Assembly: GCA_002909145.1 (NCBI GenBank)
Contig: PNQY01000033.1
Span: 1 to 34,805, forward strand
DNA length: 34,805 bases
Direction of reading: 5' to 3'
Source of the DNA: Candidatus Thioglobus perditus
GTDB taxonomy: Bacteria; Pseudomonadota; Gammaproteobacteria; PS1; Pseudothioglobaceae
This document shows positions 4,784 through 12,835 of the stretch, piece after piece. Position 1 is the first letter of the stretch; every line of letters begins with the position of its first letter. A model generated the notes under the pieces. That model did not search any database, was not told the origin of the DNA, and saw only the letters and a program-made list of their open reading frames with translations. A program made the translations under genes and the position numbers.

Positions 4784-5905
4784 TTAGTTAATAATTCTTT
4801 CTATACCCCACCAAAATCCAATCAACGCGATTAGTATGGATACAGGCATTACCGCTAATTTTCGGTAGTTAAGTTTTAAGCCGCGTATAGTGAGTAACAC
4901 TACAACCACACCAAGTACAATCGCGATTTGAGCCAACTCTACACCCAAATTAAAACCAATAAGTGTAGCCAGAAAAGACTCTGGCGCCATATCAAAACTT
5001 TTAAGCATACTGGCAAAACCCAAACCATGAATCAATCCAAATAAAAACACAACGATACTTTTACGCCTGATGGATTGTTTTGCCAATAAGTTTTCAATTG
5101 CCACGTAAGCAATTGAAAACGCAATAATTGGCTCAACAATCCTTGCAGAGACTTCTATCACGCCATACATTGCTAAGCCAAGTGTGAGTGTGTGAGCCAG
5201 GGTGAATGTAGTTACCAGTAATAATAGCCTTCTCCATAATAATGATGAAAGCGCCATACCAATAATAAATAAAATATGATCCCACCCAAGTGGGACAACG
5301 TGATTAAAGCCAATACCAGTAAACTGAATAAACCTCTCAAAATCACTTAATGGTTCTGGGTGGTTAATATCTATCACACCACTAGGATCCCCATCTCGTA
5401 GCCATTGCCACTGAGACCAGTTGTACTCATCTTCTTTATATACTTGATAGCGTAATGCACTATCACCATAAATTGTTGCATATTGCCACTGAATAATTTT
5501 TGGCCACTCGTCTAGCTTGGCTGAATAAGTAAGGATTGTTTTTCTTGGTCTTTTCTTATAACCAACAATGTCAATATCAGCTGAATCAAGCTGCAAATCT
5601 TGCAACACACCATTTACTTTGAATTGAATACTGTTTATAAATTTGTCCTCAAACTTGATAAACTTATTACGTAGCACTTCTGGATCTAGAGCTCTAAGTT
5701 CATCATATTTATCTGAACTTGGAGCGTCAGTAGTTTTTTTATACTGAGTGCCAATACCTGTCATCGCTGCTTCAAGACTAAGGTTAACTACTATCTCAAC
5801 TTTCTTATCAGCAAAAATAGAAATCTCCACCAATGCGGGCTTAACTACATCAGCCTTCGCCAATGTAGATGCCAACACAAGTAGTGACAATAAAAGTTTT
5901 TTCAT
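4784..5905 (-). CDS. HupE/UreJ-type membrane protein with large periplasmic N-terminal domain
   Basis: 373 residues. A signal peptide (MKKLLLSLLVLASTLAKA) is followed by an extracytoplasmic region to about residue 190 and then some six or seven hydrophobic helices. The membrane part has the HupE/UreJ_2 hallmarks: PLGWDHILFIIG near residue 206, FGLIHGLGFASML and NLGVELAQIAIV. Characterised HupE/UreJ relatives are metal permeases (nickel or cobalt), but the substrate of this longer subfamily is not established, so a metal-transport role is only inference. It is downstream of soxB on the same strand, separated by a strong terminator. A TATAAT sits 6 nt before the ATG with no Shine-Dalgarno, so it may have its own leaderless promoter. 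Confidence 0.8.
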   Translation of the reverse strand: MKKLLLSLLVLASTLAKADVVKPALVEISIFADKKVEIVVNLSLEAAMTGIGTQYKKTTDAPSSDKYDELRALDPEVLRNKFIKFEDKFINSIQFKVNGVLQDLQLDSADIDIVGYKKRPRKTILTYSAKLDEWPKIIQWQYATIYGDSALRYQVYKEDEYNWSQWQWLRDGDPSGVIDINHPEPLSDFERFIQFTGIGFNHVVPLGWDHILFIIGMALSSLLWRRLLLLVTTFTLAHTLTLGLAMYGVIEVSARIVEPIIAFSIAYVAIENLLAKQSIRRKSIVVFLFGLIHGLGFASMLKSFDMAPESFLATLIGFNLGVELAQIAIVLGVVVVLLTIRGLKLNYRKLAVMPVSILIALIGFWWGIERIIN

Positions 5906-5911
5906 TGTGTA

Positions 5912-5917
5912 ATTATA
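5912..5917 (-). promoter_or_regulatory. Candidate -10 element for the HupE-like gene (leaderless start)
   Basis: On the minus strand TATAAT is followed by 6 nt (TACACA) and then the ATG at 5905, placing the predicted transcription start at or next to the start codon. It merges with the U-tract of the soxB terminator. The region where a -35 should lie falls inside the terminator hairpin and shows no good hexamer, so the call is tentative. Confidence 0.35.
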
Positions 5918-5943
5918 AAAAAAGCCCCGACCAGCGAGGCTTT
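5914..5943 (-). terminator. Rho-independent terminator after soxB
   Basis: On the minus strand, 9-nt arms (5935-5943 and 5921-5929) form a GC-rich stem with one G·U pair around a 5-nt loop (5930-5934). The stem is followed directly by a run of seven Ts. It starts about 20 nt after the soxB stop codon and ends about 9 nt before the HupE-like start, so it should separate the two transcripts. The opposite strand has no T-run and would not terminate well. Confidence 0.85.
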
Positions 5944-7852: not shown

Positions 7853-7857
7853 TCTTT

Positions 7858-7863
7858 CTCCTT
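7858..7863 (-). promoter_or_regulatory. Ribosome binding site fixing the soxB GTG start
   Basis: On the minus strand AAGGAG lies 5 nt before the GTG at 7852. It decides the start because no ATG is available near the Tat signal: the twin arginine is encoded just 4 codons downstream. It is one of the few strong Shine-Dalgarno sequences in the window, suggesting that soxB is well translated. Confidence 0.8.
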
Positions 7864-7897
7864 AAAAAGCAAATATAAGAGTTGTATGATACACAAT

Positions 7898-7930
7898 GGT
7901 CTGGTTAATTGATATGGGTTAATTAAGACC
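7898..7930. promoter_or_regulatory. Candidate operator between soxB and murE
   Basis: The octamer GGTTAATT occurs twice in direct orientation (7903-7910 and 7917-7924), 14 bp apart. The pair is bracketed by GGTCT (7898-7902) and its reverse complement AGACC (7926-7930), giving an imperfect dyad in the 140-bp divergent region. It lies about 45-80 bp upstream of the soxB start, where an activator or repressor could act. This could be chance in AT-rich DNA; no specific regulator is implied. Confidence 0.3.
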
Positions 7931-7980
7931 ACGCTAAACATAAGGCTTGTTAGATATTAATTTTTACACCAAAGCTCCCA

Positions 7981-7986
7981 TATAAT
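7981..7986 (+). promoter_or_regulatory. Candidate -10 element of murE (leaderless start)
   Basis: A perfect TATAAT is followed by only 6 nt (ACTCCT) before the murE ATG at 7993, so transcription would begin at or beside the start codon. The -35 position 18 nt upstream holds only a weak TTAATT (7957-7962). No Shine-Dalgarno is present between the two. Confidence 0.5.
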
Positions 7987-7992
7987 ACTCCT

Positions 7993-9375
7993 ATGAATAT
8001 TAATCAACTTTTACTAGATATTACTGATACACAATTTGATATTGAAATCAGTGGCATGTGTTTGAATACCAATAACGCCCAACCAGGTGATATATTTATT
8101 GCACTACGAGGCAAATCTACACACGGCATTAATTATATTGATCAGGCTATAAATAAGGGATGTGTGGCAGTATTAATTGACTCTCAAGATAGTGAGTGTG
8201 CCATTCCGTCTATTCGTATTGACAACCTATCAGAACACTTACAAACTCTAGCTTCTAGAATGTATCCTGATGCTACAAAGATTGAAGTTATAGGAATTAC
8301 TGGCACCAACGGTAAGACATCAGTAGCTTGTTTTATCTCTCAATTATTAGGAAATTTGGGGGTTAACAATGGTCTAATTGGCACGTTAGGAATATCTAAC
8401 AGTAAATACAGCTCAAGCAATACCACCCCAGATATATTAACCCTATATCGAGTACTGGATGATTATTATAATAATAATATCAATAAAGCAGTATTGGAAG
8501 TATCTTCACACGGCATTAGTCAAGACAGGATTCAAGGTTTAAATATTACCCAAGCAATCTTTACTAACCTAACTCAAGATCACCTTGATTATCATCTTAA
8601 TATTGAAGAGTATAGAAAAACTAAGCAAAAGCTATTTGCACTTAAAAGCATCGAACACGTAATTCTTAACAAAGACGATTCCAGTTACAAATACTTTTTG
8701 GAGGCCAGTAAAGGCAAAAAACAAATCGACTATTCTATAGATGATTTTGTCGATATAAAAACTACAGAGCAAGGATTTTTAGCTCATCTTGATGATTACA
8801 TTTTTGAAATTCCTTTTCTGGGTGAATTTAATCTAGTAAATATACTAGCAGCAATGAATAGTGTTGAGCAACTAGGGTTCGAGCGCAGTGAGATTATCCC
8901 ACTGCTACATAAACTAACACCGCCGCCCGGAAGAATGCACAAAATTAACCAACACCTTGCTTGGATTGATTATGCTCATACTCCAGATGCCATAGAAAAC
9001 GCAATTACTACTTTACAAAAACACTATCCAGACTTTAAAGTTCGTGTTGTCTTTGGTTGCGGTGGCAATAGAGATAAAGGCAAACGCGCCAAGATGGGCA
9101 AAATTGCATCAAAACTTGCAAGCACTATTATCCTAACCAACGACAATCCAAGATCTGAAGATCCACAATCAATAATTAACGACATATTGAACGGCATTGA
9201 CGATAGCTACAAACTAGATATTATTCAAGATCGAAAGCTAGCCATTGAAACAGCAATTACCACATTAAAAGACAATGAGTGCTTACTAATTGCTGGAAAG
9301 GGGCACGAATCAACTCAACAATTTAAAGATAAAACAATTGCTATGAACGACATTGATATCGCCAAGAATGCTTAA
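7993..9375 (+). CDS. murE: UDP-MurNAc-L-Ala-D-Glu:meso-diaminopimelate ligase
   Basis: 460-residue cytoplasmic Mur ligase that adds the third stem-peptide residue in peptidoglycan synthesis, using ATP. Domain 1 carries AQPGDIFIALRGKSTHG. The ATP loop GITGTNGKTS is near residues 102-111. The C-terminal TNDNPRSEDP contains the DNPR motif that marks meso-DAP-adding enzymes rather than lysine-adding ones. It is slightly shorter than E. coli MurE (495 aa). The ATG at 7993 lies 6 nt behind a TATAAT with no Shine-Dalgarno, suggesting a leaderless message. It overlaps murF by 8 nt. The usual upstream neighbour ftsI is absent. Confidence 0.96.
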   Translation: MNINQLLLDITDTQFDIEISGMCLNTNNAQPGDIFIALRGKSTHGINYIDQAINKGCVAVLIDSQDSECAIPSIRIDNLSEHLQTLASRMYPDATKIEVIGITGTNGKTSVACFISQLLGNLGVNNGLIGTLGISNSKYSSSNTTPDILTLYRVLDDYYNNNINKAVLEVSSHGISQDRIQGLNITQAIFTNLTQDHLDYHLNIEEYRKTKQKLFALKSIEHVILNKDDSSYKYFLEASKGKKQIDYSIDDFVDIKTTEQGFLAHLDDYIFEIPFLGEFNLVNILAAMNSVEQLGFERSEIIPLLHKLTPPPGRMHKINQHLAWIDYAHTPDAIENAITTLQKHYPDFKVRVVFGCGGNRDKGKRAKMGKIASKLASTIILTNDNPRSEDPQSIINDILNGIDDSYKLDIIQDRKLAIETAITTLKDNECLLIAGKGHESTQQFKDKTIAMNDIDIAKNA

Positions 9376-10791: not shown

Positions 10792-10797
10792 TAGAAT
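10792..10797 (+). promoter_or_regulatory. Candidate -10 element of pgsA (leaderless start)
   Basis: TAGAAT is followed by 7 nt (ACTCACC) and then the proposed pgsA ATG at 10805. The arrangement and even the sequence resemble the murE start (TATAATACTCCT then ATG). A possible -35, TTGATG (10766-10771), is 20 nt away, longer than ideal. Readthrough from the tRNA-Arg promoter is an alternative. Confidence 0.35.
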
Positions 10798-10804
10798 ACT
10801 CACC

Positions 10805-11416
10805 ATGATGACACTACCCAACATAATTACCCTTTCCAGGGTCCTCTTAATCCCTTTATTTGTTATGTTGTATTACTTGCAGCCTGCTTATAGCCCAAAT
10901 GGATTTATTAACATTCAAGCACCTGAGAATATCTTTACACAAATTAATTTTTGGGTAACTGGCGTATACGCATTTATTAGTATTACCGACTACTTGGATG
11001 GCTATCTTGCTCGAAAGCTTAATATGACCTCGCAATTAGGCGCCTTTCTAGATCCAGTTGCAGACAAGCTAATGGTCTCAACAGCATTAATATTGTTGGT
11101 AGATTTCTACCCGAGCGATACGCATTGGTATATTAGTATCTGCGCACTAATTATTATTTCTCGTGAAATTTTGGTGTCAGCATTAAGAGAATGGATGGGT
11201 ACAATTGGTCAAAGATCTAACGTCAATGTATCTTTTATTGGTAAAGTTAAAACCTTTGTGCAAATTTTTGCTATTTTATTCTTACTATACCAACAACCTT
11301 TCTTTGGTCTTCCAAGTTTTGAAATTGGTGTTGCATTGCTACTTGCAGCAACCTTTTTAACATTGTGGTCAGGTTTTATCTATTTAAGAGAAGGGGTTAA
11401 AACTTTTGATAATTAA
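10805..11416 (+). CDS. pgsA: CDP-diacylglycerol-glycerol-3-phosphate 3-phosphatidyltransferase
   Basis: About 203-residue integral membrane enzyme that makes phosphatidylglycerol phosphate, committing CDP-diacylglycerol to phosphatidylglycerol and cardiolipin. The CDP-alcohol phosphatidyltransferase motif DG(X)2AR(X)8G(X)3D(X)3D is clear in DGYLARKLNMTSQLGAFLDP and the following VADK. The start TLPNIITLSRVLLIPLFVM is typical of PgsA, which is why I choose ATG 10805 (or 10808) over an in-frame TTG at 10766 that would add 13 unrelated residues. Several hydrophobic helices span the rest. It lies between tRNA-Arg and tRNA-Gly, and is not in the usual uvrC-pgsA pair. Confidence 0.93.
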   Translation: MMTLPNIITLSRVLLIPLFVMLYYLQPAYSPNGFINIQAPENIFTQINFWVTGVYAFISITDYLDGYLARKLNMTSQLGAFLDPVADKLMVSTALILLVDFYPSDTHWYISICALIIISREILVSALREWMGTIGQRSNVNVSFIGKVKTFVQIFAILFLLYQQPFFGLPSFEIGVALLLAATFLTLWSGFIYLREGVKTFDN

Positions 11417-11743: not shown

Positions 11744-12277
11744 TTAATTTGCCAATTTAACAATCTTCTCAACAATGTCCGGGTGGTTAAACTCTCTGCC
11801 ACCAACTGCCTTATAAGCAACACGGCCTTTTGGGTCAACAACATAAGTAGTAGGTAAGCCCATTACCTTCCATTTACTCATAATACTAGAGTCAGTATCA
11901 AACAACATAGTAAACTCAGGAGTAGGGTCTAGATCATTGATAAATGAAAATACAGTATCAATATCTTCACCAACATTTACCGTCACAATAGATATGTTTT
12001 TACCTTGTGTTAATAAACGCAACTTCTCTAAAGATGGCATTTCACGTCGACATGGCGGACACCAAGTTGCCCAAAAATTAACAACCACAGCTCTACCTTT
12101 TAATGACTTAATGTCAAAATACTCTTCATCTATATCTGTTAGCTTTAACTCTGGAGCCACTTGAGCTGGGACAAGTTGTTTAAAGCCATGAGTTAAGGGT
12201 GGCTGATCTAGAGCGTAAGTATTTATAGAGATCGACAATACAGCCACAATTAAAAAATTTAACTTATTTAGATACAT
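11744..12277 (-). CDS. TlpA/SoxW-like periplasmic thioredoxin
   Basis: 177-residue exported thiol-disulfide protein. The N-terminus is a hydrophobic signal or anchor (about residues 6-24). The AhpC/TSA-Redoxin-type fold has the active site NFWATWCPPCRREMP near residues 67-81 and the cis-proline motif LPTTYVVDP near residue 140. TlpA/ResA-family proteins reduce disulfides in periplasmic partners such as apocytochromes, copper centres, or SoxY-type proteins. Its start overlaps the end of the preceding 184-aa secreted protein by 10 nt, so the two are probably translationally coupled and may work together. The specific partner cannot be determined from sequence. Confidence 0.88.
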   Translation of the reverse strand: MYLNKLNFLIVAVLSISINTYALDQPPLTHGFKQLVPAQVAPELKLTDIDEEYFDIKSLKGRAVVVNFWATWCPPCRREMPSLEKLRLLTQGKNISIVTVNVGEDIDTVFSFINDLDPTPEFTMLFDTDSSIMSKWKVMGLPTTYVVDPKGRVAYKAVGGREFNHPDIVEKIVKLAN

Positions 12278-12822
12278 TTAACTCCATGCATTGTAAGAGA
12301 ATAAGGTTTAGATTCTATATCCCAACGGATAGTGATATCAAATTCGGCTTTAGGGGTTAACCCTACAGATAGCATTCCTCGATTCCAATCACCTCCACTT
12401 TCATACTCTTGCTCCTCTGGAATCTGTGCAAGACGAAAGGCAATTAAAGCTGATGGTTTGACATTTTTTTGTTTTAACTGCTGCAACCAGCTACTATTTT
12501 TTCTTATTGGATTTACCTGATCGCCACTAACAATATCCCAGTTGCTACGCAAGAAATGTATGCGTCCTGGAGCGTTATCATTACGCAATATTGCAGTGTA
12601 CACACAGGTTTGCACATATGGCTGTATTTGTTCTAAACTAAAGCCACGCCCATAATAAAATGCATCTAGATTTTCTAATGATAACTGCTGCAGAGAAAAT
12701 GTAACACCATGCTCAGTTTGCTTCCAGATTTCCGGCTTGAGCTCTGGGGAATGCACACTAGCCAGACTATTATAAAAATAAAAACCAACAATAATAAATG
12801 TGAATAGCTTGATTACTTTCAT
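12268..12822 (-). CDS. Secreted protein of unknown function
   Basis: 184 residues that I do not recognise. A hydrophobic signal peptide (about residues 4-22, ending SLAS) is followed by a soluble domain. Two Cys residues are visible in the mature part, one in QTCVYTAIL near residue 92 and one at the penultimate position (VKCI), which could form a disulfide. Notable segments are FYYGRGFSLEQIQPYV, FLRSNWDIVSGD and ESGGDWNRGMLSVGL. The 3' end overlaps the TlpA-like thioredoxin gene by 10 nt, so a redox-linked partnership is plausible but unproven. A GATAAT lies 7 nt before the ATG with no Shine-Dalgarno. The gene follows argG after 75 nt. Confidence 0.8.
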   Translation of the reverse strand: MKVIKLFTFIIVGFYFYNSLASVHSPELKPEIWKQTEHGVTFSLQQLSLENLDAFYYGRGFSLEQIQPYVQTCVYTAILRNDNAPGRIHFLRSNWDIVSGDQVNPIRKNSSWLQQLKQKNVKPSALIAFRLAQIPEEQEYESGGDWNRGMLSVGLTPKAEFDITIRWDIESKPYSLTMHGVKCI

Positions 12823-12829
12823 AAATTTG

Positions 12830-12835
12830 ATTATC
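12830..12835 (-). promoter_or_regulatory. Candidate -10 element for the 184-aa secreted protein
   Basis: On the minus strand GATAAT is followed by 7 nt (CAAATTT) and then the ATG at 12822, another possible leaderless start. No convincing -35 is seen at 16-18 nt spacing, so readthrough from argG remains an alternative. Confidence 0.3.

Follow-up and report, generated by a model that had tools for sequence, protein, structure and literature searches.

Probable leaderless starts of murE, pgsA and a minority of other first-in-operon genes in a Thioglobaceae-like gammaproteobacterium

A minority of the first-in-operon genes of a Thioglobaceae-like gammaproteobacterium, with murE and pgsA among them, are probably leaderless and transcribed from sigma-70 promoters, a reading to which we assign a probability of about 0.85. 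In the proposed model, 6-8 nt separate the end of the sigma-70 -10 box from the ATG, and RNA polymerase would start, by ordinary sigma-70 transcription, at or within ~3 nt of the A of the AUG; the ribosome would then initiate on the 5′-terminal AUG without a Shine-Dalgarno sequence. For this set of genes, we infer both the transcription start site and the mode of ribosome entry. The stretch of DNA analysed, referred to here as the window, comprises 34,805 nt and is contig 5 of a 1.59-Mb genome in 190 contigs. Thioglobaceae-like is a provisional designation founded on gene content, such as soxB and its relatives, and on the named records with a related murE cited below. A preliminary description of the window had pointed out four genes with a -10-like hexamer just before the start codon, and the geometries it gave are found in the sequence: TATAAT and 6 nt at both murE and a HupE/UreJ-like gene, TAGAAT and 7 nt at pgsA, and GATAAT and 7 nt at a gene encoding 184 amino acids. 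None of the four displays a Shine-Dalgarno sequence, and clear ones precede fusA and soxB (SoxB identity by TIGR04486), as the same description had reported.

Among the four named genes, the case for a leaderless start is excellent at murE (7993..9375, forward strand; 460 aa, above cut-off with NCBIfam NF001126 and TIGR01085). The hexamer TATAAT (7981..7986, forward strand) is followed by the discriminator ACTCCT and the ATG (7987..7995, forward strand), which leaves 6 nt of spacing. An exact TATAAT stands 6-9 nt 5′ of the ATG in 29/29 distinct upstream sequences, a set made up of family sequences together with those of the Bathymodiolus heckerae thiotrophic symbiont and of the metagenome-assembled gammaproteobacterium ETNP2_MAG_37; the contig search for murE returned two near relatives only. 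The spacing amounts to 6 nt in 22 of these sequences, 7 nt in three, 8 nt in three and 9 nt in one, and the ATG after TATAAT opens the same protein in all 29. As determined by alignment, each of the six TATAAT columns carries 2.0 bits and the A directly 3′ of the hexamer 1.6 bits, followed by columns of 0.7, 0.2 and 0.3 bits; most columns on the 5′ side are near-random flanks at 0.1-0.8 bits. The spacer start ACTC, which had been remarked on as shared by murE and pgsA, is therefore not a motif, since only its A is conserved among the 29 murE sequences. The arrangement is kept in seven genera (g1, g2, g4, g5, g7, g9 and g11, the last via G010), and among the matches listed for the deep genus g3 the exact pattern TATAAT-N5-8-ATGAA is absent at the murE start.

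Because soxB is transcribed divergently, murE needs its own promoter in the intergenic region between the two genes (7853..7992 in the window), which measures 99-397 nt across the family loci with this divergent arrangement. On the basis of the 6-nt spacing and the established sigma-70 geometry, transcription of murE would begin at A7993, and the best reading of these sequences is a leaderless mRNA or one with a leader of 0-3 nt. The divergent pair, which sets sulfur oxidation beside cell-wall synthesis, is preserved in 28/30 family loci.

The case for pgsA (10805..11416, forward strand; 203 aa, opening with ATG ATG; TIGR00560 above cut-off) is good. Its hexamer TAGAAT (10792..10797, forward strand) ends 7 nt before the ATG in the window and lies 5-9 nt 5′ of it in 17/30 family loci from seven genera; the pgsA loci of genus g2 and part of g5 are without it. 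In genus g6 (loci L176 and L177), TAGAAT is located 37-38 nt upstream of the ATG within a similar flank, and in L176 an AAAGG-like Shine-Dalgarno sequence precedes the gene. The displaced hexamer is thus tied to the promoter and independent of the ATG, and compared with the 17 other loci the sequences of L176 and L177 point to a probable switch from a leaderless to a leadered start. A tRNA-Arg gene lies just 5′ of pgsA in the window, and read-through from its promoter is a possible second source of transcript. As for murE, a leaderless mRNA or a leader of 0-3 nt is the best reading of the upstream sequences. The protein itself comprises 203 residues here and in a few relatives (G013, G023 and G032) versus ~194 in most of the family, likely owing to an internal insertion.

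At the HupE/UreJ-like gene (4784..5905, reverse strand; 373 aa; Pfam PF13795, E 2e-43), leaderless transcription is possible and the case is graded weak. The TATAAT (5912..5917, reverse strand), 6 nt before the ATG at 5905, overlaps the T-tract of the intrinsic terminator hairpin 3′ of soxB (5921..5943, reverse strand; found by terminator scan, with a 9-bp stem in the fold and an MFE z of -2.6). We give even odds to the view that the hexamer is merely this T-tract with its trailing sequence, and that the gene is expressed by read-through or from another promoter. Not only do hairpin and T-run stand immediately before the hexamer, but TATAAT is missing from most relatives that retain the hairpin, several of which have the ATG right after the T-run. 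Against this view, TATAAT followed by 6 nt and the ATG is seen again in G008 and G015, which belong to two other genera. In many relatives (L179-L189), the HupE-like gene opens with its ATG immediately behind the T-tract that ends soxB, within ~3-15 nt; in some relatives the upstream gene is a different one.

The 184-aa gene (12268..12822, reverse strand) has no Pfam or NCBIfam match. Its GATAAT (12830..12835, reverse strand), 7 nt before the ATG at 12822, is known from the sequence only; a single relative was found among 40 genomes, its start region does not align, and a role of this hexamer as a leaderless promoter is unsupported. The leaderless reading, which had been put forward for all four genes, holds as the best one for murE and pgsA and is not supported for the HupE-like gene, given the terminator overlap and poor conservation, and for the 184-aa gene, which lacks usable relatives. 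Treating the four as one class was dropped, with one of them having a single relative and another being doubtful.

A genome-wide plot of the distance between -10 motif and start codon, proposed in the preliminary description as a check, was run on 1.22 of the 1.59 Mb (GC 36.6%, anti-Shine-Dalgarno normal). Genes were called on codon usage alone with a home-made caller that contains no ribosome-site or promoter term and missed the pgsA start, and were divided into those leading a transcription unit and those internal to operons. Hexamers were scored when they matched TATAAT in at least 5/6 letters, with A2 and T6 fixed. Measured from the hexamer's end to the start codon, the leading genes display a main -10 peak at ~27-36 nt and a small secondary peak at 6-8 nt that exceeds the AT-rich background: 63/605 ATG-start leading genes carry such a hexamer at 6-8 nt, compared with a dinucleotide-shuffle mean of 34.2 (sd 5.6) and a shuffle maximum of 52, so that the observed count was reached in 0/200 shuffles. 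For leading genes without a Shine-Dalgarno sequence, the figures are 53/381 versus 23.6 ± 4.5. Operon-internal genes show no excess (21 versus 18.5 expected), and its confinement to leading genes is as expected for leaderless genes that are first in their unit. Among the 20 possible orderings of these letters, TATAAT comes first in every gene set.

Two further features distinguish the genes with a near hexamer. A Shine-Dalgarno match of at least 4 nt is rarer in them (16/97 versus 391/1015, p 8e-6), and the extended -10 element TGn precedes 17/97 near hexamers versus 5/214 control hexamers (p 5e-6); its rate at the hexamers of ordinary leadered promoters is similar, 57/407. A -35 element is not enriched over ordinary promoters or background, and leadered promoters score no better here. 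The excess of ~29 genes corresponds to ~5% of leading genes and roughly 2-3% of all genes. Because the shuffles alone yield 34.2 of the 63, about half of the single matches are chance, and an individual gene therefore has to be backed by comparison with relatives; such backing exists for murE and pgsA, in part for the HupE-like gene and not for the 184-aa gene.

The same peak, albeit weaker, is present in G021, a member of another genus of which 800 kb were analysed (30 hits versus 18.7 ± 4.0 in shuffles). All reciprocal best hits between the two genomes taken together average 75% protein identity; the starts could be aligned and compared in 353 orthologue pairs, and murE and pgsA are not among them. 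Leading-gene hexamers at 6-9 nt keep the same distance (±1) in 14/22 pairs versus 10/49 for hexamers at 10-24 nt (p 8e-4); the values are 3/16 at 0-4 nt and 36/73 for ordinary promoters at 26-33 nt. Owing to the peak in G021, the kept distance, the enrichment of TGn and the scarcity of Shine-Dalgarno sequences, we consider promoters to be the best reading of the near hexamers. The set conserved in G021 includes panD, an RfaH-like gene, sbcB, xthA, a gene for an RND permease, a glcD-like gene, rnd, hslO, pssA, a rluA-family gene, bioD and a 191-aa gene, which we take from its sequence to be rnfA. Our impression is that these are low-expression housekeeping enzymes. That murE, pgsA, pssA, xthA, sbcB, rnd, the rfaH-like gene, hslO, bioD, panD and the glcD-like gene form a selected core of leaderless housekeeping genes in the family and a distinct translational class is a speculative extension that we think improbable; if true, these genes would respond jointly to the state of the ribosome or its initiation factors.

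Two other accounts of the near hexamers as a whole have to be weighed. The hexamers might be real -10 boxes of secondary importance, with the functional mRNAs arising from upstream promoters and carrying leaders. In line with this, a second -10-like word is found 26-39 nt upstream in 32% of the near genes (the other genes have one there in 44% of cases), and a TATGAT-type site is present farther upstream in the gap between soxB and murE. We nevertheless regard this account as unlikely in view of the Shine-Dalgarno depletion in near genes and of the murE alignment of 29 sequences, where TATAAT is the only block of columns at 2 bits. The other account, that AT-rich background yields TATAAT-like words by chance in a 37% GC genome while selection for unstructured starts raises the AT content near the ATG, is the probable explanation at the 184-aa gene and, in part, at the HupE-like gene, and shuffles alone do account for 34 of the 63 hits, but as a full explanation it is very improbable and, at the level of sequence comparison, is refuted by the rank of TATAAT above all permutations of its letters, the missing operon-internal excess, the TGn enrichment, the distance-specific conservation and the 29/29 murE sequences.

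Gene starts of the type favoured here, with a sigma-70 -10 box directly before a leaderless ATG, are already known, and the present genes are a well-conserved new instance. A published survey (Zheng 2011, PMC3160421) reports leaderless genes whose Pribnow box stands ~10-12 bp ahead of the start codon for 206 bacterial genomes; in it, TA-led genes occur in 15/239 gammaproteobacterial genomes, mainly of the Xanthomonadales and Legionellales, where on average 4.5% of genes are leaderless. The present set resembles them in its Pribnow-like hexamer, the lack of a Shine-Dalgarno sequence and the leading position of the genes, but its share of all genes is a little lower (roughly 2-3%). A search of the text of PMC3160421 for the name Ruthia gave no hit. 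In Deinococcus, the near -10 motif has been proven by mutation (PMC12340547), and in Deinococcus-Thermus, as proposed here, a -10 motif a few bp before the open reading frame drives a leaderless mRNA; there, however, about one third of genes carry the motif TANNNT (PMC12340547), whereas here a small minority carries a fuller TATAAT consensus. The assertion in the preliminary description that leaderless starts are unusual as a recurring theme in gammaproteobacteria does not agree with the survey figures of PMC3160421 or with published counts of tens per genome, namely 33 mapped leaderless mRNAs in Salmonella (PMC3293720) and 83 in Klebsiella (PMC3536570). The likeness to these two organisms lies in the number per genome; their leaderless mRNAs were mapped, whereas ours are predicted from sequence and conservation. 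The papers searched include no transcription start-site study of SUP05.

With the list given here, the Thioglobaceae, abundant and largely uncultured marine sulfur oxidisers, would join the gammaproteobacteria with conserved probable leaderless genes. The annotation of gene starts and promoters is corrected accordingly, as gene finders that expect a Shine-Dalgarno sequence can miscall leaderless starts. Since pgsA appears leaderless behind TAGAAT in seven genera and has the hexamer at 37-38 nt in another, switching from leaderless to leadered starts is open to study within one family. As a minor observation, pssA (C63:8580-9332, L050) and pgsA encode the two enzymes at the branch point of phospholipid synthesis, and both look leaderless here.
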